A DNA stretch of 64,000 bases from Actinomycetota bacterium. GTDB taxonomy: Bacteria; Actinomycetota; Actinomycetes; S36-B12; UBA5976. Of this stretch, positions 39,911 to 59,972 are shown piece by piece. The notes beneath the pieces were generated by a model. The model had not been told where the DNA came from. It saw nothing but the letters and a program-made list of their open reading frames with translations, and made no database searches. The stretch is taken from contig JAPLBY010000033.1 of the NCBI GenBank assembly GCA_026392515.1, forward strand, positions 1-64,000. The letters are read 5' to 3'. Position 1 is the first letter of the stretch, and each line of letters opens with the position of its first letter. The position numbers and the translations under genes are program-made.

Positions 39911-40456
39911 ATGACTCAGCGCGTGGCTTGCTTCACAGGCAGATTCCAACCCTTCCACAATCAACACTTGGAAGTGCTGTCTGCGTTAAGCCACAAATTT
40001 GATCGCATCATTATTGCAATAACAAATCCAGACATCGAAAATCTGTTCGAACATGCGGCAAGTCAGCACCGTCATACTGATGCCGCTAATCCGTTTTCCT
40101 ATGAGTCCCGCGTCCAGATCATTGAAGATTCGATTTCCGAGCTAACTGATCTAAATCATGTGGAAATTGAAATCATTCCGTTTGATTTAACCCAACCAAG
40201 TTCCTGGGCAGTACCTGCCGAAACGGTATTTGCATTGCGCATCTTTAGTTCCTGGGAGGCAAGTAAGTTGGATCTCTTTACTGGCCAAGGATTTGAAGTT
40301 CTTGAGTTACCAGCGCCAGCAACGAAGTTATCTGCATCTGATATTCGCGAGGCACTAACAACAAATGACTCGACCTGGCATTCACATGTCGCTCCAGGCG
40401 CAGTTTCCACGATCCAACAGGAATGGGATAACGCAACATCCAAGGTGAGTGCTTAA
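39911..40456 (+). CDS. NadM-like nucleotidyltransferase of unknown substrate
   Basis: A 181-residue Rossmann nucleotidyltransferase. The opening MTQRVACFTGRFQPFHNQHLEVL matches the GRFQPFHxGH motif of archaeal NMN adenylyltransferase, with FHNQH in place of FHxGH, and LSASDIREAL stands for the ISSTxIR motif. It is close to full family length (~170-180). The substrate may be NMN, but its place between a hydrolase and an ApgM-like gene is not typical of NAD salvage. The next gene begins immediately at its stop. Confidence 0.72.
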   Translation: MTQRVACFTGRFQPFHNQHLEVLSALSHKFDRIIIAITNPDIENLFEHAASQHRHTDAANPFSYESRVQIIEDSISELTDLNHVEIEIIPFDLTQPSSWAVPAETVFALRIFSSWEASKLDLFTGQGFEVLELPAPATKLSASDIREALTTNDSTWHSHVAPGAVSTIQQEWDNATSKVSA

Positions 40457-41833
40457 GTGAAGCCAGCACCGATGTGGGATGACCGAACCCCAATGATTCT
40501 GATTACTTTTGATGGACTCGGCGATCGGCCTTGTGAAGAATTGAACGGGCAAACTCCTTTGGAAGCAGCCAATACTCCCAATCTTGATGAACTAACTCGA
40601 ATTGGTGTCTCCGGAATCCATCAACCATTTGGTCCAGGGCGAGCAACTTCAAGTGAGCGCAGTCACTGGGCAATGTTTGGCCAGACTCAAACTTTCCCTG
40701 GCCGAGCTCTGTTTGAAGCAACCGGTATGGGAATTGAGATTCCATCGCAGCGACCTCATTTTCATCTTGCGCTTCGACCTGCCGAGATTCGGGACGGTCA
40801 ACTTCATGCCATTGGTCGAGTCAGCGCTGATGATGCAACTGATTGTTTAGATCTATTTGATGCGCTTCGAGTCATGCCACACGAATTAAATCCTGTGTTG
40901 CATCCACTTCGCAACGGTGAATGCATTCTCGAGTCGGCCACACTGTCATCACATGAGATAAGTGACAGTGATCCACTATTTGGTCACCTGCATCCAGTAT
41001 TGAAGCCACTGCCACTTGATGATGCTTCAGATTCAGCAGCAGCGCATAACTCAGCGGAGTTAATGACTAGTTGGCTTAGCGCTGCAGTAAAGATGTTGCA
41101 AGATCATCCGATAAACAAAGCCAGACGTGAAGCGGAAAAGCTTGAACTAATTGCTCCTGTAACAAAATGGGCAAGTAACAAAACTGAGTTGAAAACATTC
41201 GAGCAGTCCACTGGATTGACGGGCGCCGCAGTTACGAGTTCTGCTCTGTATCGCGGATTAGCCGAAACATTGGGCATGACTCAGACTCACATTCCAAGTG
41301 ACATGGAAAACATTCAAGAAGATTTTGAAGCCAGAATCTTGGCTGGTATTGAATTGAGCAAAACTCATTCGTTTGTTCACATTCACACCAAGGCAACAGA
41401 TGAAGCTGGTCACACCAAATCCCCTTCATTAAAGCGAGATGTGATCGAGGCCTTAGATCGTGCCTGTCATTCACTTATTGAACTAGCGCAGACCAAAACG
41501 ATCATGATTACAGGAGATCACGCAACACCTTCAACTGGTGGGATCATGCACTCGGCACATCCGACTTCAATAGTTTTAGTTGGTCCGCACGTTCATCCTG
41601 ATGTGGCAATTACATGTGGTGAAAGCTCTCACAAATCCGGTGACCTTGGAAAAATTGCAGCAAGTGATATCTTGCCCCTTATGTCGCATTACTCACATCG
41701 AGCTGCCTTCAAGGGGCATGCAACTGGATCTTGCGAAACAATAGCCTTACCTGACAACCCGATCGCCCTAGATTTCTCGGAACCAACAAATGAAAATCAA
41801 GTCACTCAAATAAACCGAACAGGAATCAAATGA
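40457..41833 (+). CDS. ApgM-like alkaline-phosphatase-superfamily phosphomutase/metalloenzyme
   Basis: A 458-residue metalloenzyme similar to archaeal-type cofactor-independent phosphoglycerate mutase (COG3635). The N-terminus has FDGLGDRPCEELNGQTPLEAANTPNLD; RATSSERSHWAMFG carries the likely Ser nucleophile; HTKATDEAGH and ITGDHATPS supply the remaining metal ligands. All key residues appear intact. The GTG start touches the stop of the preceding gene, and the stop overlaps acd2 (ATGA). Glycolytic use is unlikely in this operon; a phosphonate or phosphoester substrate is possible. Confidence 0.75.
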   Translation: MKPAPMWDDRTPMILITFDGLGDRPCEELNGQTPLEAANTPNLDELTRIGVSGIHQPFGPGRATSSERSHWAMFGQTQTFPGRALFEATGMGIEIPSQRPHFHLALRPAEIRDGQLHAIGRVSADDATDCLDLFDALRVMPHELNPVLHPLRNGECILESATLSSHEISDSDPLFGHLHPVLKPLPLDDASDSAAAHNSAELMTSWLSAAVKMLQDHPINKARREAEKLELIAPVTKWASNKTELKTFEQSTGLTGAAVTSSALYRGLAETLGMTQTHIPSDMENIQEDFEARILAGIELSKTHSFVHIHTKATDEAGHTKSPSLKRDVIEALDRACHSLIELAQTKTIMITGDHATPSTGGIMHSAHPTSIVLVGPHVHPDVAITCGESSHKSGDLGKIAASDILPLMSHYSHRAAFKGHATGSCETIALPDNPIALDFSEPTNENQVTQINRTGIK

Positions 41834-43100: not shown

Positions 43101-44486
43101 ATGTCAAACAATGAAACTTTGTCACTTGAGATCGGTACTTGGGCGCAGACTGTTTCGATAACTGACGTTCCAAAGCATGTTCAGGACCAAGCATTACTAA
43201 ACATTCTTGATGCCGTTGGAATCGCGTTCGCATCCACTCACTATGAATTTGCAACTCGTAGTATTGCCGCATCCGTAGCCCTGGGCTCAGGCCCTCGTGG
43301 CGTTATCGCTTGTTCTGAGCGCCTAACAGTCCGCGATCAAGCAATGCTTAACGGCATCTTGATTCATGGTTTGGATTTTGACGATACCCACGTTCCTGGT
43401 GTTATTCATGCCACTGCAAGCGCGCTACCAACAGCGATCGCTATTGCTGACGATCGCGAACTTAGTGGTAACGATCTAGTGCTGGGCTTTCTAGTTGCGT
43501 TAGAAATTGGTGCCCGCGTTGGTACTGCTGCTAATGGCGGATTCCATTCTCAAGGCTTCCATCCAACTGGCCTTGCTGGTGCGTTTGGCGCTGCCACCGC
43601 AGCAGCCAAAATGATCGGCCTTGATGCGCACGGTATCGCCAGCGCTCAAGGAATTGTTGGGTCATTAGCTTCCGGATCTATGGAGTTCTTAGAAACTGGT
43701 GCTTGGACTAAGCGCCTGCATCCAGGTTGGGCAGCAGTTACAGGTATCACTGCTGCGGAACTTGCAAAGGCCAAGTTTGAAGCACCACTAGCAATTTATG
43801 AAGGCCGATTTGGTCTCTACACAACACACACTCCAGCAGGCCATGACCTAAAGATGGATGCAGTTGCTGCGGACTTGGGTTCGGCTTGGGAATTGATGCG
43901 AGTGGCAATTAAGCCTTACGCAGCGTGTCACTTCACACATGCCTGTATTGATATTGCAATTGAACTAGTAACGGAAAACAACCTAACTGCCGCAGACATC
44001 GAATCAGTTACCACGATTGTGCCATCGCAAGTTGTTCCTGTGGTTTGCGAACCAGCACAGGCAAAGCTAACTCCACGCAGTGATTACGATGCTAAATTCT
44101 CATTGCCGTTCATTGTGGCTACTGCAATTGCAAAGCGTCGCTTTACTTTGGCAGACCTGGATGATGATTGCCTAGTTGATCCTGAGTTGCTGGAATTGGC
44201 CGCAAAGGTTTCCTACCAAAATGATCCAAATCCAACATTCCCTAAGTACTTCCATGGCGAAGTAATCATTCAGACTAAGGATGGCCGTACGCTTCGCAAG
44301 CGCGAAGACATAAATCGTGGTGCTGATGAACGTCCACTATCGGTAAGTGATGTTGAAACTAAGTTCCGTGACAATGTTTCATTAGTCGCCGGAACAGATG
44401 TTGCAGATCGAGTGCTAAACGCAGTCATGTCGCTGCCAACAACTAAGAACTCACGTGACTTTGTTGAGGCCTTAACAACTAAATGA
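43101..44486 (+). CDS. MmgE/PrpD family protein
   Basis: A 461-residue member of the MmgE/PrpD family, which includes 2-methylcitrate dehydratase and cis-aconitate decarboxylase. Typical stretches are LNILDAVGIAFAST, LNGILIHGLDFDDTH, GFHPTGLAGAFGAATAAAKM and KPYAACHFTHACID. The exact reaction cannot be settled. No prpB or prpC is near, so a methylcitrate cycle role is unlikely; dehydration or decarboxylation of a di- or tricarboxylate is a reasonable guess. It overlaps selD by 4 nt. Confidence 0.88.
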   Translation: MSNNETLSLEIGTWAQTVSITDVPKHVQDQALLNILDAVGIAFASTHYEFATRSIAASVALGSGPRGVIACSERLTVRDQAMLNGILIHGLDFDDTHVPGVIHATASALPTAIAIADDRELSGNDLVLGFLVALEIGARVGTAANGGFHSQGFHPTGLAGAFGAATAAAKMIGLDAHGIASAQGIVGSLASGSMEFLETGAWTKRLHPGWAAVTGITAAELAKAKFEAPLAIYEGRFGLYTTHTPAGHDLKMDAVAADLGSAWELMRVAIKPYAACHFTHACIDIAIELVTENNLTAADIESVTTIVPSQVVPVVCEPAQAKLTPRSDYDAKFSLPFIVATAIAKRRFTLADLDDDCLVDPELLELAAKVSYQNDPNPTFPKYFHGEVIIQTKDGRTLRKREDINRGADERPLSVSDVETKFRDNVSLVAGTDVADRVLNAVMSLPTTKNSRDFVEALTTK

Positions 44487-45499
44487 CACTTGATGTAACG
44501 GGCTTAAGTCTTAGGGATTTAACTTCATGTGGTGGCTGTGCTGCAAAAGCAGACGCATCCCTATTGAAGTTACTTCGGTCTGCCGCTTACGACCAGCAAG
44601 GAATTGAAACCCTTGTTGGTCTAGCGGCCCCTGATGATGCAGCCGTTACCGCAATGAACGAAACAACATCACTTATTACAACTGTCGACTTCTTTCCTCC
44701 TGTTGTTAGCGATGCCTTTGAATACGGTTACGTAAGTGCGCTGAATTCACTTTCTGACATTTATGCCATGGGTGGCTTAGCAAAAACGGCGCTATTGGTT
44801 TGTGGCTTTCCAAGAGAAATAGCTGATTCGGAAATCTCAGCATGTGTTGCTGGAGCAGCTTTAGCTTGCAAGGAAGCCGGAGTTGAAATTCTTGGTGGTC
44901 ACACAGTCCGGATTGCTGAGCCAATTTTTGGTTTAGCAGCTACTGGCTACGTTCACCCAAATGAGATCTGGCGCAAAACTGGAATGGCCGATGGCGACTT
45001 GTTGATGCTTTCTAAGCCATTGGGTGTTGGGGTCCTGCTATCTACTAGAGAGCAAAGTGATGAAGAAATCGCCCTGGAGCAAATGAAGGTTTCAAACTTA
45101 AGTGCCCGTAATTCCCTAGTTCAATTAGGTTCGGCAGTCCACGCAGTAACTGATGTAACTGGATTTGGATTGATCGGTCACCTAAGCGAAATGCTTGGAA
45201 CCTCATTCCTAAATGCTCAAGTGAACTTGCCTTCGCAGGCAGTCTTGCCTCAAGCGCAGTCACTATTTGACTCCGGGAAACGAACTTCAGCAGATGCTCG
45301 CAACCGGGATGCCTTAGATCGAGAAGTCTTGGGTTTAACGCAGAGCCATTCTCAAGCCGCCCTATTTGATCCACAGACTAATGGCGGACTCTTGGCCAGT
45401 ATTAATCCTGCGTTTGAAATTCAACTAGTTGAGCAAGGATTTATCACGGTAGGTAAAGTTGTAACAGGTTCAGGGAAAATCGAAGTTTTAAGTAATTAA
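44483..45499 (+). CDS. selD: Selenophosphate synthetase SelD
   Basis: Makes selenophosphate from selenide and ATP. It is 338 residues with the catalytic region LTSCGGCAAKAD: Cys16, Cys19 and Lys22 match the active-site Cys/Lys of SelD. ATP-binding segments DDAAV, ITTVDFFPPV and ILGGHTVR are present. No selA, selB, tRNA-Sec, mnmH or selenoprotein is in the window, and the FDH uses Cys. It is embedded in a catabolic operon, coupled to mmgE and 20 nt before caiB1. Confidence 0.92.
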   Translation: MTLDVTGLSLRDLTSCGGCAAKADASLLKLLRSAAYDQQGIETLVGLAAPDDAAVTAMNETTSLITTVDFFPPVVSDAFEYGYVSALNSLSDIYAMGGLAKTALLVCGFPREIADSEISACVAGAALACKEAGVEILGGHTVRIAEPIFGLAATGYVHPNEIWRKTGMADGDLLMLSKPLGVGVLLSTREQSDEEIALEQMKVSNLSARNSLVQLGSAVHAVTDVTGFGLIGHLSEMLGTSFLNAQVNLPSQAVLPQAQSLFDSGKRTSADARNRDALDREVLGLTQSHSQAALFDPQTNGGLLASINPAFEIQLVEQGFITVGKVVTGSGKIEVLSN

Positions 45500-45519: not shown

Positions 45520-46725
45520 ATGCCACGCCCCCTAGAAGGAATTACAGTTCTCTCCCTTGAGCAATTCGGAGCGGGACCTTTTGGCACTGTCCATCTTGCA
45601 GATCTTGGGGCTCGCATTATCAAGATTGAAGATCCAAGTTCCGGTGGTGATGTCGGCAGGTACGTTCCGCCTTACGCACACGAAGAAGATTCTCTATTCT
45701 TTGAGGCTTTCAATCGCAATAAGGAATCAATCTCATTAGATCTTTCATCCCCAGCTGGCCGGGCAACTTTTGAGGATTTAGTAAAACAAAGCGATGCTGT
45801 CTACTCAAACTTGCGCGGTGACGTTCCAGCGAAACTGAAAATCACTTACGAAGACCTAAAACATCTAAATCCCGCAATTGTCTGCTGTTCGCTAAGTGGC
45901 TTTGGCATGAGTGGTCCGCGTTCAAAAGAACCGGGCTATGACTACATGCTGCAGGGACTCGCTGGCTGGATGTCCTTAACTGGGGAACCTGATGGTCCCC
46001 CAACCAAGAGTGGACTTTCCTTGGTTGATTTCTCTGGCGGCTTCGTTGCAGCGCTTGCGCTCGTCAGCGGTATTCACGCAGCCAGGCGTGACGGTGTTGG
46101 CATGGACTGCGATGTATCGCTCTATGACACTGCGCTTTCAATGACTAGCTACATCGGAGCTTGGCATTTATCAGGTGGCCACGAACCAATCCGTCACTCG
46201 CATTCTGCGCATCCTTCGTTAGTGCCATTCCAGGTTTTCCAGACTAAGGACTACTGGATCGTTATCGGTTGTGCCAAGGAAAAGTTCTATGAGCGCCTGT
46301 GCGAAGTTATTAAGCGTCCGGACCTGGCTACTAATCCAGATTTCGCTAACTTCACGGTCCGTTATGAAAATCGTGATGCTTTGGTTTCGCAACTTGATGA
46401 CATTTTCAAGACTCGAACTACGGCAGAGTGGCTAGCAGATTTAGTCCCAGCCGGCGTACCAAGCGCGCCCGTGAACACTATCGAACAAGCATTCAAAGAA
46501 GAGCACACAATTGCTCGCGAGATGATTGCCCACAGTGAGCATGAATACTTTGGCAAACTTCGCACGCCAGCATCGCCAGTTAACGTTGGACCAAAGCGTC
46601 AGACATATCAACGCGCTCCAAAGCGCGGCGAGCACACTATTTCAGTTCTAAAAGAACTGCTGGACTTAACTGACGAACAAATCAAAGCGCTTGAGGCAAC
46701 CGGAGCTTTCGGAGAAGTCAAGTGA
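45520..46725 (+). CDS. Class III (CaiB/BaiF) CoA transferase, copy 1
   Basis: A 401-residue formyl-CoA transferase-type enzyme. Motifs include LEQFGAGPFGTVHLADLGARIIKIED, the FNRNKESISLDL block, SGFGMSGP and the catalytic Asp in LSLVDFSGG. It moves CoA between carboxylic acids. Substrates are unknown; company with acd2 and MmgE/PrpD suggests activation of an organic acid. It overlaps the methyltransferase gene by 4 nt. Confidence 0.9.
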   Translation: MPRPLEGITVLSLEQFGAGPFGTVHLADLGARIIKIEDPSSGGDVGRYVPPYAHEEDSLFFEAFNRNKESISLDLSSPAGRATFEDLVKQSDAVYSNLRGDVPAKLKITYEDLKHLNPAIVCCSLSGFGMSGPRSKEPGYDYMLQGLAGWMSLTGEPDGPPTKSGLSLVDFSGGFVAALALVSGIHAARRDGVGMDCDVSLYDTALSMTSYIGAWHLSGGHEPIRHSHSAHPSLVPFQVFQTKDYWIVIGCAKEKFYERLCEVIKRPDLATNPDFANFTVRYENRDALVSQLDDIFKTRTTAEWLADLVPAGVPSAPVNTIEQAFKEEHTIAREMIAHSEHEYFGKLRTPASPVNVGPKRQTYQRAPKRGEHTISVLKELLDLTDEQIKALEATGAFGEVK

Positions 46726-47438
46726 AAGCCTGGGATGGCGTCGCCTATGACGCACTACCGCTACCCCACGAGCAATGGGGAATTAGAACCATTGAAGCGC
46801 TGAACCTGCAGCCCAACGAGACCTTACTTGATGCTGGTTGTGGAACTGGACGAGATGCTCAGTTAGCTCTAGCGCAACTTTCAAATGGCAACTTGGTTTG
46901 CGTTGATCAAAGCACCACCATGCTGGACCAATGCCGAACCAGATTTGGTGATGATTCTCGCGTGCAAATCTTGGAAGGTGATTTAGATCAAGCGCTTCCT
47001 GTCGAGGTCGAAAGCGTTGATGCGATCATGTCAGTTGCTGCTCTTCATTGGCTGGCTCATCACAACAACGTTTGGCAACATTTCTTTAAGGGCCTAAAGC
47101 CTGGCGGTCGTATCGCAACTGATTGTGGCGGGTTTGGAAACTTAGAAAAGACCTTGGCTTTAGTGCCACAAATTGATCCAAACATTAAGTTTCCTAATTG
47201 GTACTACGCAAATGTGTCTGATACTGAGGCGCTACTTAAAGCAGCTGGATTTGTTGACATCGAAGTAAGTCTTCGTCCGCATCCAACACCACTTCCAGAT
47301 AAGGAAACTCTGGCAACATACTTAAAGACTTTGGTATTCCGGGAATGGAATGATGACCAGATTGCCAAGATGTCAGAATTGCTAACTGATAACACGCTTG
47401 ACTATGTCCGGCTTGAAGTTCGCGCCCGCAAGGCTTAA
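46722..47438 (+). CDS. SAM-dependent methyltransferase (trans-aconitate methyltransferase-like)
   Basis: A 238-residue class I methyltransferase. Motif I is LLDAGCGTGRDAQLAL, followed by VCVDQSTTMLDQC and the AALHWLAHHNNVW stretch that recalls the Tam family (trans-aconitate 2-methyltransferase). LKPGGRIATDCGG is the post-III motif. Neighbouring MmgE/PrpD and CoA transferase genes fit a carboxylate substrate, but the resemblance to Tam is only moderate and the true acceptor is unknown. Confidence 0.78.
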   Translation: MKAWDGVAYDALPLPHEQWGIRTIEALNLQPNETLLDAGCGTGRDAQLALAQLSNGNLVCVDQSTTMLDQCRTRFGDDSRVQILEGDLDQALPVEVESVDAIMSVAALHWLAHHNNVWQHFFKGLKPGGRIATDCGGFGNLEKTLALVPQIDPNIKFPNWYYANVSDTEALLKAAGFVDIEVSLRPHPTPLPDKETLATYLKTLVFREWNDDQIAKMSELLTDNTLDYVRLEVRARKA

Positions 47439-48827: not shown

Positions 48828-51047
48828 TCAAGACTTTTCAGGCTGCAGGCTCACATCAGTGATGTGGACGCCGTTTACATCAACCACATTCTGATCCATG
48901 TTCAGCAAAGCAAACTTCAGACGATCGATGTCAGAAAGATTTCCTTTGTTACGAGTGCGAACATCAAGTTCAATAGTTACGCGCAAATCTTGTGCTTGAC
49001 CTACTGTTACTCCGGCTGCCTTTGCCATCTTGTCCGCAACAATTGACGTGATTTCGCCGCGGGCAACCATTGCTGCCAATGATGCAGCTAGCTCAACCTT
49101 CCACTTGTCGGCATCCTTTGGACCCAAGTAAACCGGTTCGTTGTTTCCAACGTAATGCGGACGCCAGACGAAGAAGGAACTTAGCTCACCAGTTGGAACC
49201 AAGGTGAACTCACGTTCCACCTTGACTCGGCGTGGACCTGGGTAAGGCATTGGAGTGTTCTGTACACCAATTGTGTGTGGGAACCAGCGGAATTCGCGCT
49301 TAACGAATCCAACTGAATGTGGCGACCAAACAAATGTGGATGGCTGCTTTTCGTACTGAACAGCCGGCGGTGCTGGAGTTGGCCATTCAACTTCAGTCTT
49401 GTAGCCAATCTTGTGTGGCGACCAGGTGTAGTTTCGGGTGACGTGAAGATAAGGACCCTTAAGGCCATTCATGTGAGGACGCCAGACGAAGCCGCGCTTG
49501 ATGCCGCCGCCCTTACGAGTTCCTAGGTAACTTAGTTCAACAATCTTTTCGGGTGTTAACTCTCGGCCTGTTAGTTCTGCAACAACCTTACCTTCAGCAA
49601 AGATGAGTACCCGGTTGCAAATATTCGCCAAGTCTTCATGTTCTGCAGAAGCAACGATTACGCCAGCACCAGCACGAGCGGCATCGGCAATCTTTTCAAA
49701 GATCGCAGCCTTGCTACCTACGTCAACGCCTTGAGTTGGTTCGTGCAACAAAAGTACATCTGGCTTAATCTGAATCCACTTAGCCAGCAAAGCTTTCTGC
49801 TGATTTCCACCGGAAAGTTTACGTAACTCGATGCCTGGAACCGGCGGCTTAACATCAAAGCGACGAAGTAACTCGCCTACATCTTTCTTCAACTTATTCT
49901 TACGAAGACGTCCTGTTGTGAAGTATTTGCCAAGTACCGGCATACCCACGTTGTCAGTAAGAGTTGCAAGTAGAACTCCACTTGCTCCAGTGCGGTCCCC
50001 AGGAAGTAGGGCAACTCCAGCGTCAACTGCCTTACGTGGATTTAAATCCTCTTTTTCATACTTCTTACTCTTGATTGTTATCGTGCCATCGGTGTGTTCA
50101 AGCGCGCCGAATAGCGCGTAAGGAACTTGATCGTGACCTGCGCCCATAAGGCCAGTCATACCAAGTACTTCACCGCGGCGAAGTGTGATGTTTAGTTTTG
50201 GAATTGTGCCAGCGGCCATGTTCTTTGTCTGCAGCACAACTTCCTTGGAGGGAGTTGGAACATGGTCTGGGTAGAACGCATTCATTGATTGACCAAGAAT
50301 CATGGCTACCAAATCTGCTTCTTTGGTTTCCTTGGTATTAACCGTGGCAACCTTGCGGCCATCGCGCAGAACCGAGATTCGATCAGTTAAGTTCAAGATT
50401 TCATCGGTACGGTGACTGATGAAAACTACGCCAGTTCCCTGTCGAGTTACTTTCTTGACCGCATCGAAAAGCTTGTCGACTGATTCACTAGGCAGATAAG
50501 CGGTTGGCTCATCGAGAACTAGAACGTGACCCTCAGGGTTGGTCGCAATTTCGCGAATCGCGCGCGCGATGGCAACAATTGCCCGGTCAACTGGAGGAAG
50601 GGCTCCAACTGGAGTTAATGGATCCCACTTCAACCCAAACTGCGAAAGCTGATAGGCAACTGCACTTTTTTCGTCAGCCCATGGAATCTTAGAAAGGCCA
50701 CCGCGTCGCCAAGTACCAAGACGCAAGTTTTCCAAAATGCTAAATGCTGGAACCAAACCTAAGTCTTGGTGAACGAAAACCATGCCAAGTTGCGCAGCAT
50801 CGCTGCCACGTAGCGGTAGTTCAATATTTTCGCCGCGTAAAACTAATTTGGTTCCGCGGTCAGGCTCATGGAAGCCACTTAAAACTTTGATGAGTGTTGA
50901 TTTACCGGAACCATTGCGACCTACCAGGCCATGAATTTCTCCGGGACGTACGTCGAAATCAACATTGGAAAGCGCTTTGGTCGGTCCAAAAGTTTTGGAC
51001 AGATTTGTGAACTCAAGGACTGGGCTTACGCCAGTATCTTCAGCCAC
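48828..51047 (-). CDS. Sugar-type ABC transporter ATP-binding protein with novel C-terminal WxPHxxG extension
   Basis: A 739-residue ATPase; RbsA/MglA relatives are about 500. Residues 1-255 and 270-510 are tandem ABC domains. Domain 1 has Walker A LVGRNGSGKST (42-52), Q-loop VHQDLGL and Walker B LVLDEPTAYLP (176-186). Domain 2 has the degenerate P-loop GLMGAG typical of this family, signature LSGGNQQKALLAKW (411-424) and LLLHEPTQGVDVG. Residues 517-739 are extra: five W-x-P-H-x-x-G repeats, then about 90 residues without a recognised domain. The GTG start follows AGGAGA. It is the last gene after permease and binding protein. Confidence 0.88.
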   Translation of the reverse strand: MAEDTGVSPVLEFTNLSKTFGPTKALSNVDFDVRPGEIHGLVGRNGSGKSTLIKVLSGFHEPDRGTKLVLRGENIELPLRGSDAAQLGMVFVHQDLGLVPAFSILENLRLGTWRRGGLSKIPWADEKSAVAYQLSQFGLKWDPLTPVGALPPVDRAIVAIARAIREIATNPEGHVLVLDEPTAYLPSESVDKLFDAVKKVTRQGTGVVFISHRTDEILNLTDRISVLRDGRKVATVNTKETKEADLVAMILGQSMNAFYPDHVPTPSKEVVLQTKNMAAGTIPKLNITLRRGEVLGMTGLMGAGHDQVPYALFGALEHTDGTITIKSKKYEKEDLNPRKAVDAGVALLPGDRTGASGVLLATLTDNVGMPVLGKYFTTGRLRKNKLKKDVGELLRRFDVKPPVPGIELRKLSGGNQQKALLAKWIQIKPDVLLLHEPTQGVDVGSKAAIFEKIADAARAGAGVIVASAEHEDLANICNRVLIFAEGKVVAELTGRELTPEKIVELSYLGTRKGGGIKRGFVWRPHMNGLKGPYLHVTRNYTWSPHKIGYKTEVEWPTPAPPAVQYEKQPSTFVWSPHSVGFVKREFRWFPHTIGVQNTPMPYPGPRRVKVEREFTLVPTGELSSFFVWRPHYVGNNEPVYLGPKDADKWKVELAASLAAMVARGEITSIVADKMAKAAGVTVGQAQDLRVTIELDVRTRNKGNLSDIDRLKFALLNMDQNVVDVNGVHITDVSLQPEKS
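49146..49490 (-). repeat. Five WxPHxxG protein repeats in the ABC ATPase tail
   Basis: Repeat units at residues 520-528 FVWRPHMNG, 540-548 YTWSPHKIG, 572-580 FVWSPHSVG, 586-594 FRWFPHTIG and 626-634 FVWRPHYVG of the ATPase. Spacings are 20, 32, 14 and 40 residues. Each is aromatic-x-Trp-x-Pro-His-x-x-Gly. The DNA copies are also alike but not identical (several read gacgccagac on the plus strand), so they look like old internal duplications. Confidence 0.85.
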
Positions 51048-51155: not shown

Positions 51156-52307
51156 CTAGCTAGCGGTCCAGAACTTTGCGAATTCTGCTGCAAAGTCAAT
51201 GCCGTACCAGTTAACAGAATTTTCTACAGAAGTATCGATTGAACCAATGTTGGATTCATCGAATACCTTGCAGGTGATTCCGTAGTTGTCTGGAACTGCA
51301 TTACCAGTTAGCAGGCGTAGGCCAGCGTCAACTGTTGCGTATGAGAACCAGTCATTTGGACAACCGACGTCCATCTTTACTGAACTTGTACCGATACCAG
51401 CTGCAACTGCAGGAGTCATGTTGAATGACGACTGAATTGCGGCTGAACCTGCTGCGTCAAGACCAGCGCCAGTAGCGATAGTCATGCCGTCGTAGATTGG
51501 CATCAAGTGAGTGATAGTTGCATCTGCAGTAACTGCGTTCTTTGCAACACCATCAAGTGTTCCATCGAACCAAGTTGCAAGCGGAGCATCCTGGTAGTCA
51601 ACCTTGGCGTCTGGGCAAACTTCTGCCACACGGTCCTTGATTGTCTGAATCATGATTGGGCTGGAGGCTTGGCCTTCAGAACCCCACACAACAGCGTTAC
51701 CAGCACCAGCACCAGTTACACAGAACCAGTCAGCCATCAAGCTAGCTGCAAGTGTGTAATCGAATGATGGATCTGCAGCAATACCAGCAGCTACTGCAAC
51801 ACCTGGGGCTGCAGTCTGGTTGGTTGTCATTACTGGAATGTCACCCAAATCAGTTAGCGGAATAAGAGCTGCTGGAACTGCGTTGGTGATGATTAGATCA
51901 ACCTTGTCAGTTACTGCCTGTGCGAAGAACTTAGGAAGTGGATCGATAACGCCACCTGCATCGCTCTTCTGAGTAACAGTTACACCCTGGCTTTCTAGGC
52001 CAGCTGCAATTGTGTCTGTCCACTGCTTTAGAACTGGAATCTGGTCGTTGATCGAAATCATCGCAACCTTCTTGCCAGAAGCAGCTGAAGCATCAAACGC
52101 ATCGCCTGGGTATGCAAATGTCAAAGAAGCAGCAAGTGCAGCATCGTATGATGCCTTCGCTGTTGCTAAGCCATCGGCAGCCGCAGGTGCGCTAGCAGCC
52201 TCGGTAGGTGCTGCTTCTTCAGACGAGCTTGAGCAACCGCTCAAAACTAGTCCAGCAGCAAGTGCGGCGGCTACGAAGCCGAAACGCATTTTCTTTTGTG
52301 CTTGCAT
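51156..52307 (-). CDS. ABC transporter periplasmic-type substrate-binding lipoprotein (sugar-binding fold)
   Basis: A 383-residue lipoprotein: signal peptide KMRFGFVAAALAAGLVLSGC with lipobox LSGC, then a low-complexity Ser/Ala/Glu linker (about 25-50) and a type I periplasmic-binding domain (KVAMISINDQIPVLKQWTDT; VDLIITNAVPAALIPL). The fold matches RbsB-like proteins for sugars and nucleoside-like ligands. The ligand is not readable. The operator upstream of the operon suggests the substrate of the GntR island. Confidence 0.88.
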   Translation of the reverse strand: MQAQKKMRFGFVAAALAAGLVLSGCSSSSEEAAPTEAASAPAAADGLATAKASYDAALAASLTFAYPGDAFDASAASGKKVAMISINDQIPVLKQWTDTIAAGLESQGVTVTQKSDAGGVIDPLPKFFAQAVTDKVDLIITNAVPAALIPLTDLGDIPVMTTNQTAAPGVAVAAGIAADPSFDYTLAASLMADWFCVTGAGAGNAVVWGSEGQASSPIMIQTIKDRVAEVCPDAKVDYQDAPLATWFDGTLDGVAKNAVTADATITHLMPIYDGMTIATGAGLDAAGSAAIQSSFNMTPAVAAGIGTSSVKMDVGCPNDWFSYATVDAGLRLLTGNAVPDNYGITCKVFDESNIGSIDTSVENSVNWYGIDFAAEFAKFWTAS

Positions 52308-52334: not shown

Positions 52335-53360
52335 TCAGTCACTCGACCGCGACCGAAGGTTGGATGCCACCGTGGCTACGAGCACGCCAATAACAAGCGC
52401 GAGTCCGTAGAACACATCTGTAATCCAAACCTCGAAGCCCTTGAGCTGTAAGCCCGTGATTCCGGTTTCGAGGAAATATACAGCTACAACTGTGCCCCAG
52501 ACGTTGAAGCGTCCTGGCCTAATTGCAGTTGAACCTAGGAATGCTGCTGCGAACGCAGGCAACACATATGATTTGCCGATGCTGGATTGTGCAGCACCTG
52601 CAGTTGTTAAAACCATGGCGCCAGCAAGAGCTGCCAAAGTTGAGCACGCAATCAAGGAGTAATAGCGGTATGCGTTTGTCCGAATACCAGCAAGGCGAGC
52701 AACTTCACGTCCCTGACCGACAAAGTAAAGCTGTCGTCCAATTGGAGTGTGTTCCAGGATGTACCAAGCAATGAAGGCTAAAATCAGCATGAACCAGAAA
52801 GCTGCGTAAAAACCAAAGATACGAGTCTTTACAAGCGCTACGAATGAGAAAGTTTGGACGCTTAAGGTTGTATTACCCGCGAGGCCACTGACTATGCCGC
52901 CGAGCGCCGTACCAGTTCCGAGCGTTACTACCAGCGATGGAATCTTGCCTTTAACACTGAGCAGACCATTGATAAATCCGAATGCAGCTGCAAAAACTAG
53001 TGCGATCAGAATTGCAATTGGTAGCGAGATCCCATGCACGGTTGCCAGCCAAGCTGGAATTGCAGCACCTAATGAAACGGCGCCGCCAATCGAAAGATCA
53101 AACTCACCGGCAGAAAGTGCGAACACCAAGCCAAGGGTTAACAAAACAGTTGCAGCTTTTTGATTTGCAATCGAAGTTACGTTTTGCCACGTTGGGAACA
53201 CTTCTGGAAGCAACAAACTGAAGACCGCAAAAAGCACGAACCAAGCAACCAAAATTGCATAAGCCTGAATCCGGTAGCTTGTTGAAACCGCAGCACTGGT
53301 GTTGTCCTTGCTGCCTTTACGTCGAAGGTTCAACCGACGTAACGAAACGGTTTGTGACAC
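52335..53360 (-). CDS. ABC transporter permease (RbsC-like)
   Basis: A 341-residue membrane permease with about ten hydrophobic segments. The conserved RbsC-type motif GEFDLSIGGAVSLGAAIPAWL is present, as are FINGLLSVKGKIPSLVVTLGTGTALGGIV and QSSIGKSYVLPAFAAAFLGSTA. It is the first gene of the operon (permease, binding protein, ATPase) and lies downstream of operator 3. Basic N-terminus inside. Confidence 0.92.
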   Translation of the reverse strand: MSQTVSLRRLNLRRKGSKDNTSAAVSTSYRIQAYAILVAWFVLFAVFSLLLPEVFPTWQNVTSIANQKAATVLLTLGLVFALSAGEFDLSIGGAVSLGAAIPAWLATVHGISLPIAILIALVFAAAFGFINGLLSVKGKIPSLVVTLGTGTALGGIVSGLAGNTTLSVQTFSFVALVKTRIFGFYAAFWFMLILAFIAWYILEHTPIGRQLYFVGQGREVARLAGIRTNAYRYYSLIACSTLAALAGAMVLTTAGAAQSSIGKSYVLPAFAAAFLGSTAIRPGRFNVWGTVVAVYFLETGITGLQLKGFEVWITDVFYGLALVIGVLVATVASNLRSRSSD

Positions 53361-53663: not shown

Positions 53664-54536
53664 GTGAAGGTTTCAGTAGTTCAGAGCGGCAATTGCACGC
53701 AAGATGTCTCAGAAAACGTGGCAATGTTGCTCGAATTATCCGAACAGGCAGCAAGTACAAATCCTGACTTAATTCTGTTGCCAGAGCTTGCCACTACTCC
53801 TTATTTTGCGGCTGGCGATAAAAGCCCGAAGTATCGCAACTGGGCTGAGCCTGTCGTTGGTGGAGCTTCAACTGCAGCTTTTGCAAAGTTCGCAAAAGAT
53901 CACAACACGGCCCTTGGTTTTGGCATGTACGAGATCGACAACGACGTTCGGTACAACTCGCTTGTGATTCTTAATCGCAACGGTGAAGTTGTGCATGGCA
54001 AAACTCACGACGGAAAAACTTACCCAGCGTTTCGCAAACTAACTGCGCCTTCGGTTCACATGCCAACACTTGATGTGCATGAAGATGAATACTGCACTGC
54101 TGGTCCCGGTCCAATGAATTTCGATATTGACGGAGTCTCAACCGGTGCCTTGATCTGTTACGACCGCGCTTTCTCCGAACCTTGGATGGCTAACCGCGCA
54201 CTTGGCGCCGATGTTGTTTTGCTTGCTGTGTCATCTTTGGGTTGGCGTGAATCTTTGTTCATTAATGACCTTCGACTTCGCGCCATGGAGATGGGCGTAT
54301 TTGTCATCGCTTCAAATCGTTCGGGCGAAGAAACTTGCGGTGGAAAAACTCACGACTTCTTCGGCCGGTCTTGTGTTATTGCTCCAACTGGTGAAGTTCT
54401 TGCTGAAGCTGGTGGTCACAACTACCCCGAAATCATTCATGCGGAACTCGACATGTCGTTACTTGCGCAGGCGCGCAAAGACTGGCCAGTTTGGAACGAT
54501 CGTCGTCCAGAAATCTATTCCTGGATGTACAAGTAA
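53664..54536 (+). CDS. Nitrilase-superfamily C-N hydrolase (N-carbamoyl amidase-like)
   Basis: A 290-residue carbon-nitrogen hydrolase. The triad is Glu41 (PELATTPYF), Lys113 (GKTHDG) and Cys165 (GALICYDRAFSEP). The ICYDRAFPE-type box and length resemble N-carbamoyl-amino-acid/putrescine amidases and beta-ureidopropionase. It is a single-gene unit with its own operator and could cleave a ureido or amide product of the RutA reaction. The true substrate is open. Confidence 0.88.
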   Translation: MKVSVVQSGNCTQDVSENVAMLLELSEQAASTNPDLILLPELATTPYFAAGDKSPKYRNWAEPVVGGASTAAFAKFAKDHNTALGFGMYEIDNDVRYNSLVILNRNGEVVHGKTHDGKTYPAFRKLTAPSVHMPTLDVHEDEYCTAGPGPMNFDIDGVSTGALICYDRAFSEPWMANRALGADVVLLAVSSLGWRESLFINDLRLRAMEMGVFVIASNRSGEETCGGKTHDFFGRSCVIAPTGEVLAEAGGHNYPEIIHAELDMSLLAQARKDWPVWNDRRPEIYSWMYK

Positions 54537-58751: not shown

Positions 58752-59822
58752 TTACTTGCCTACGCGGGTCTTCATCAAAGGCTGAACCTTTGTACCGAAG
58801 ATGTCCATGCCAGTTACGAAGTCATCGAATGTCAACATGACACCCTTAACTCCATTTACGGTGTCAATTTCATCCAACATGCGAGCCACTGAGGCGTATG
58901 AGCCAACAAGTGTTCCCATGTTGAAGTTGATTGCACCTTCTGGAAGTGCGATTGTCGCGGCGGTACTGGTTCCATCTGCATTAGTTGTATCCGCAGCAGC
59001 TTGGCCAGCCATCCATGACAATGCGCCAGCGTCTGCACCAGCGTTGTAGTGCTTCCACTTAGCCATGGCCTTTTCGTCTGTTTCGTCAACGATAACCATG
59101 AACAGCACGTATGCACCGATGTCACGGCCAGTTTCCTTGGCAGCACGAAGTAGTTGGTCGGCTGATGGCTTAAACGCAGTCGGTGTATTTACACCGGTGC
59201 CCAGAATGAACTGGTAGTCACCATACTCAGCACAGAAACGCATACCGCGTTCTGACTGACCGGCACAAACTAATGGAATCTTCGAAGAAGGCTTTGGCAA
59301 CATTACGCAGTCATCCATCTTGAAGAACTGACCCTTGAAGTCTGATGAGCCCTTGGTCCAAAGTTCTTGCATAACGCGTACGTACTCTTCGGAGTATTCG
59401 TAGCGGTAGCCGAAGTATTCGTCTCCTGGCCACAGACCCATTTGATCGTATTCACCCTTTGCCCAACCGGACACGATGTTTACGCCAAATCGACCTGGCG
59501 CGATTGAGTCAATGGTTGATGCCATGCGAGCAACAATCGCTGGAGGCAAAGTAAGGATTGCAGTTGAAGCGAAAAGTTTGATCTTTTCGGTCTTTGCAGC
59601 AAGTGCAGCCATCAAAGTGAATGACTCTAGGTTGTAATCCCAGAATTCGCTCTGGCCACCAAAGCCGCGAAGCTTGATCATTGAAAGTGCGAACTCAAAG
59701 CCATACTTTTCAGCGCGCTGAACACATTCAAGGTTTAGCTCGTAGGACGGCTTGTATTGCGGCGACGTAGTTGAGATGAGCCAACCATTGTTGCCAATTG
59801 GAATAAATACTCCGAGATCCAC
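58752..59822 (-). CDS. rutA: Pyrimidine monooxygenase RutA (luciferase-like FMN enzyme)
   Basis: Strikingly close to E. coli RutA, which opens the uracil ring with FMNH2 and O2. The GTG at 59822 follows GGAAGGAG and gives 356 residues. Stretches such as [53 protein letters not shown] and [16 protein letters not shown] are shared nearly word for word. It may act on uracil, thymine or another amide-bearing ring. It is divergent from the rutD-like gene, and operator 7 lies between. No rutC, rutF or rutG homologue accompanies it. Confidence 0.93.
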
Positions 59823-59972
59823 AGGGGAACTCCTTCCGGTTTTAAATCGCAATAGAGACTGAGCGGACACAAATCCACACAAAGCGTTTCTCTGAAACTT
59901 AGTGCGAAAACCTAACTTTGTCCTAGAGAATGTGCATTTTGTGTCCAAAGAGAACATTTTGCAACGCAGTTA

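Follow-up and report, generated by a model that had tools for sequence, protein, structure and literature searches.

The window, by which we mean the whole stretch of 64,000 nucleotides that was analysed, encodes on its minus strand an ABC importer whose ATPase carries a long C-terminal tail (Table 1). The reading frame of the ATPase is open on the minus strand, and the plus strand across the same interval is full of stops. Two ABC domains are fused in the single chain, recognised by Pfam as two stretches of ABC_tran. NBD1 contains the Walker A sequence GRNGSGKST and the Walker B sequence VLVLDEPT, and NBD2 contains the signature LSGGNQQK and a degenerate Walker A (GLMGAGHDQ), as is usual in tandem ABC ATPases of the RbsA/XylG/AraG type. 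The NBD2 Walker B, at residues 431-438 of the ABC body, reads LLLHEPT, with histidine replacing the usual aspartate, a feature common to several tail-less relatives. The best NCBIfam relatives are the XylG-like PRK13549 and AraG, within the ATPases of xylose, arabinose and ribose importers, and all scores fall far under the equivalog cut-offs of XylG, AraG and RbsA (356/699 bits at best, then 350/689 and 327/745). The protein belongs to the ribose/xylose-importer (CUT2, RbsA-like) type of tandem ABC ATPases. The genes for an RbsC-type permease and a lipoprotein, the putative substrate-binding protein, adjoin it here and in relatives; the lipoprotein matches nothing in Pfam, NCBIfam or the PDB sequences, in contrast to the permease and the ATPase, which are of known types.

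Table 1. Features of the tailed ATPase and its neighbours in the window.
Feature	Coordinates	Strand	Basis or remark
ABC importer ATPase with motif tail	48828..51047	-	739 aa, GTG start; translation, Pfam ABC_tran x2
Tandem ABC body, residues 1-512	49512..51047	-	Translation, Pfam ABC_tran
Motif 1, FVWRPHMNGL, residues 520-529	49461..49490	-	
Motif 2, YTWSPHKIGY, residues 540-549	49401..49430	-	
Motif 3, FVWSPHSVGF, residues 572-581	49305..49334	-	
Motif 4, FRWFPHTIGV, residues 586-595	49263..49292	-	
Putative decayed sixth unit, FTLVPTGELS, residues 614-623	49179..49208	-	Read from sequence
Motif 5, FVWRPHYVGN, residues 626-635	49143..49172	-	
C-terminal domain (predicted), residues 641-739	48831..49127	-	AlphaFold2; no fold match, no family match
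Importer lipoprotein, putative substrate-binding protein	51156..52307	-	Adjoins ATPase in relatives
Importer permease, BPD_transp_2, RbsC type	52335..53360	-	PF02653, 1.2e-33; adjoins ATPase in relatives
Carbon-nitrogen hydrolase, carbamoyl-amidase type	53664..54536	+	Conserved neighbour
RutA, pyrimidine monooxygenase, in conserved cluster	58752..59957	-	TIGR03612 601 bits, cut-off 498

Beyond the ABC body, the tail extends for ∼225 residues. It contains five intact copies of an FxWxPHxxG motif and apparently one decayed copy, and a last domain of ∼100 residues closes the protein. The motif consensus is [FY]-x-W-x-P-H-x-[VI]-G-[YF], and the tryptophan, proline, histidine and glycine are invariant across the five copies, as a preliminary description of this DNA had stated; that invariance is true within the 739-residue protein, and among the motifs of relatives tyrosine replaces histidine in the first copies of family f6 and alanine replaces proline once (G162). 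The decayed unit sits between motifs 4 and 5 (REFTLVPTGEL, residues 612-622), and its identification as a sixth copy is suggested by its resemblance to the neighbouring unit VKREFRWFPHTIG. The array is non-random: W-x-P-H-x-x-G occurs five times in the 231-residue tail, compared to a mean of 0.0013 per shuffle and a maximum of one in any of 200,000 shuffles, and W-x-P-H is absent from the ABC body. The terminal tail noted earlier after the repeats is present, but it runs for ∼104 residues beyond the last motif and not 90. A match to a known domain, which would have spoken against the preliminary reading of the tail as unrecognised, did not appear in Pfam, NCBIfam, PHROGs, PDB sequence or PDB fold (Foldseek) searches; in Pfam and NCBIfam nothing in the tail scored better than E 0.1, and no TOBE, NIL/C2 or CBS profile matched. 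None of the papers searched for the motif strings contained them, and the motif tail is previously undescribed as far as these searches reach.

Structure prediction, which had been suggested as a check on the tail, gave the repeats very low confidence. In the full AlphaFold2 model (15 orthologues), the repeats have a pLDDT of 20-30 and the C-terminal domain ∼55, rising to ∼50-80 when the domain is modelled alone from a shallow alignment, where it is predicted to be helix-helix-strand-helix-strand. The low confidence points to short motifs strung on linkers, and away from a folded domain that binds a ligand. The repeat region is likely, rather than certainly, disordered, and a small fold is possible because the alignments are shallow (15 rows). 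The C-terminal domain occurs only in the window's genus, plus remnants in G040 and G041. Foldseek against the PDB gave no match to it better than E 2.4, and a search for remote relatives gave, apart from weak matches due to chance, only the G040 remnant of 30 residues.

The tail is not a local oddity. A tail query found it in 12 of 23 genomes (species) of the same genus, the others among the 12 at 70-98% identity to the window, and the remaining 11 have neither tail nor ATPase. Public copies come from metagenome-assembled genomes labelled mostly Actinomycetota or Candidatus Nanopelagicales. With the ABC body as query, seven genomes of family f6 were found at 54-57% identity, and all seven proteins end in the motif. 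All 19 intact ATPases of the clade (12 from the genus and seven from f6) therefore carry it, which disposes of the concern that the tail might be a rare local elongation. The next relatives, at ≤49% identity, lack the motif in all those read, and the tail-bearing ATPases are monophyletic with 100/100 support in a tree containing 11 clade members. The profile search with the repeat proposed in the preliminary description has been run: across 395 genomes of the class and 396 of the phylum nothing comparable lies outside the tail-bearing ATPases, and searches of the own set, the class and the phylum gave no convincing match on any other protein. The motif was on none of the other open reading frames of the catabolic clusters searched, and a plasmid search gave no match. 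It is thus restricted to one ATPase clade. Two sets of candidates look like chance resemblances of 7-10 residues in unrelated contexts, namely WRPHRAGIVNVW near the N-terminus of SMC-like ATPases (L032, L035 and L036) and WFPHYVGF in histone-deacetylase-like proteins (L039 and L041).

Copy number differs within f6: one motif in G045 and G047, three in G048, four in G040, five in G043 and G044, and four in G036, the first of which has arginine in place of glycine. The units recur every 31-35 residues, and their number shifts when 31-35 (or 62) residues are duplicated in frame, the copies being 95-99% identical in DNA, as between units 1 and 2 of G040 (99% over 35 residues), units 1-2 and 3-4 of G044 (95% over 62 residues) and units 2 and 3 of G036 (99%). 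In G045 and G047 the lone motif lies at the extreme C-terminus (FRWRPHRVGYxx-end), ∼11-15 residues past the aligned ABC body; this single copy could be ancestral or the result of loss. Both G048 and g23 have a distinct type of first unit, FQWRPYRVGF, and two units may thus have been present in the ancestor already. In the window's genus, the spacing of the motifs is fixed at 20, 32, 14 and 40 residues in the four members measured, and copies within one gene share only ∼39% identity, although the species agree at each position. The array changes through in-frame duplication in f6 and is frozen at five copies in the window's genus.

Substitution rates in the window's genus indicate strong purifying selection on the array at the sequence level. 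The ABC body has a dN/dS of 0.022, compared to 0.056 in the repeats and 0.075 in the last domain, and these ratios are rough because synonymous distances are near saturation. Within the repeats, dN is 0.009 for W, P, H and G with the aromatic core, compared to 0.081 for the linkers, of which 65% of sites are nevertheless invariant.

In both families, the tailed importer always lies within one conserved catabolic cluster, some members of which are missing in some genomes. The cluster includes genes for a RutD-like protein, RutA, GntR, FMN reductase, WrbA, an HMG-CoA-lyase-like protein, a class III CoA-transferase and a carbon-nitrogen hydrolase, together with the importer (ATPase, lipoprotein and permease), a methyltransferase, MmgE/PrpD, a RutB-like protein and others. 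The RutA product also matches RutA structures at E 1e-155, and the RutB and RutD candidates fall short of their equivalog cut-offs (47/378 and 84/238 bits). Because a close RutA relative belongs to the conserved cluster, the cargo of the importer is probably a pyrimidine-like ring, and the earlier guess of a ring-like cargo fits this neighbourhood. Tail-less importer relatives often lie beside CoA-transferase and HMG-CoA-lyase genes, and RutA was not found beside them in the stretches read.

Other genes of the region deserve mention in their own right. A SAM methyltransferase gene (46722-47438, plus strand) adjoins the ATPase gene convergently in both families, and its product could in principle modify the tail. 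A selD gene (44483-45499, plus strand; 280 bits against a cut-off of 125) lies inside the catabolic cluster. At 39911-41833 (plus strand), an NMNAT-like nucleotidyltransferase adjoins an apgM-like mutase, a pair reminiscent of PhpF/PhpG of phosphonate metabolism; the mutase reaches only 155/545 bits against PhpG. The NMNAT-like, apgM-like, SelD and acyl-CoA dehydrogenase genes co-occur across the clusters read and are all absent in L089, L092 and L093. The first of these is the own cluster of G040, and that genome has a second, g1-like half cluster (L124:1-9463, G040:C9) that supplies the four genes. Most genes of the half cluster are 65-95% identical to those of the window, and it ends in the 30-residue remnant of a g1-type ATPase tail, which looks like transfer between families. 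In G041, a g23 genome, a further g1-like half cluster (L096:487-858) has ATPase residues 315-385 fused in frame to 699-739, which may be a deletion remnant, an assembly error or contamination.

We tentatively propose, at somewhat less than an even chance, that the tail strings together short docking motifs on flexible, proline-rich linkers and binds a putative partner protein at the importer. The proposal draws on the lone terminal copy, the tandem multiplication, the selected ten-residue aromatic-Pro-His-Gly core and the lack of a predicted fold. Each copy would dock into a pocket on the putative partner, probably one of the cluster's cytosolic proteins or the adjacent transporter subunit. 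Several partner molecules could be held in this way beneath the importer, at its cytoplasmic face. Holding them there would either hand the imported ring compound on to the enzymes that act on it first or adjust transport. In the window's genus, the five-copy array is capped by the extra domain of ∼100 residues. One terminal copy suffices in G045 and G047, so a unit needs no others beside it, and further copies would raise the valency. Against docking, the linkers of the window's genus are more conserved than free linkers need to be. The presence and absence of cluster genes across genomes picked out no single partner. A transporter-tethered metabolon, in which the multivalent, copy-number-variable motif would recruit co-encoded pyrimidine-pathway enzymes to the membrane exit site, is doubtful.

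The main rival to partner docking, though somewhat unlikely, is that the motifs bind the protein's own ABC domains or a neighbouring subunit, as a latch that stabilises the assembly or holds it off. The lone motif of G045 and G047 is near enough to the ABC body to reach it, the motif turned up solely on the tailed ATPase in the searches above, and the C-terminal extension of MlaF, which docks on a neighbouring subunit, provides a precedent (PMC7367683). Five spaced copies, however, exceed what one subunit pocket needs, and the AlphaFold2 model, of low confidence, does not place the motifs confidently on the body. The preliminary description had suggested binding of a metal, a flavin, nucleotide-like rings or the transported ligand, with feedback control of transport. 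In this reading, histidine, tryptophan and tyrosine of the motifs would bind the imported ring, a flavin or a metal and inhibit transport by feedback. The conserved residues are indeed aromatics and histidine, the cargo is probably a pyrimidine-like ring, and C-terminal domains of other ATPases are known to relay substrate feedback (PMC10710835). This role appears improbable all the same: each motif has a single histidine, replaced by tyrosine in several copies, no folded pocket is predicted (the pLDDT of 20-30 comes from a shallow alignment), and G045 and G047 have just one copy.

Two further readings bear on what the conserved residues are for. Insertion of Trp, Phe and Tyr with Arg at the lipid surface, keeping the ATPase at the membrane, would suit the aromatic and basic motifs of f6 (FRWRPHRVGY; net charge of the units +1 to +4). 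It is weakened by a motif charge that varies (0 to +3 in the window's genus); lipid contact does not need the conserved Pro, His and Gly, and the permease already holds the ATPase, so that we regard it as quite improbable. That the tail is a functionless elongation through slipped-strand duplication is hardly credible. The near-identical recent duplications in G040, G044 and G036 do indicate that the region expands easily, but neutrality is contradicted by the selection data (dN/dS of the repeats), by retention of the motif in two families whose ABC bodies are ∼55% identical, and by the fixed spacing.

What emerges is an importer ATPase with a real and conserved C-terminal accessory region, the function of which we infer. 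To our knowledge, regulation or scaffolding of an ABC importer through short repeated motifs instead of folded domains has not been described, and the importer tails that we know of are single domains or single peptides. Since close relatives differ naturally in copy number (1, 3, 4 and 5), the valency hypothesis is directly testable with these variants. The findings also suggest that uncultured water actinobacteria take up pyrimidine-like compounds by way of an ABC importer.

Compared to known systems, the importer resembles RbsA/XylG/AraG (CUT2) in its fused ABC domains, its adjoining RbsC-type permease and lipoprotein (the putative binding protein), and the LSGGNQQK of NBD2. It differs in falling under every equivalog cut-off, in the tail itself, in the NBD2 Walker B and in a putative binding protein outside any Pfam family. 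The MlaF extension of MlaFEDB is functional and docks at the MlaF-MlaB interface (PMC7367683); it resembles the tail in prolonging an ABC ATPase at the C-terminus by a peptide with hydrophobic residues for docking, but it is a single element of ∼25 residues, whereas the tailed ATPases have 1-5 tandem motifs of different sequence. Other importer ATPases carry C-terminal additions, such as MetN C2, the ModC regulatory domain and MalK TOBE, some with substrate feedback (PMC10710835; PMC7367683), as exemplified by MetNI and ModABC (PMC10710835). These are folded domains with known profiles, and none matches the tail.

The cluster resembles the Rut pathway in a RutA above the curated cut-off, with RutD- and RutB-like hydrolases and a flavin reductase alongside. 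It differs in that the RutB and RutD matches are under equivalog level and in its extra CoA-transferases, HMG-CoA-lyase-like and MmgE/PrpD enzymes. E. coli uses RutG in its pyrimidine degradation pathway, and in place of RutG this cluster has an ABC importer.
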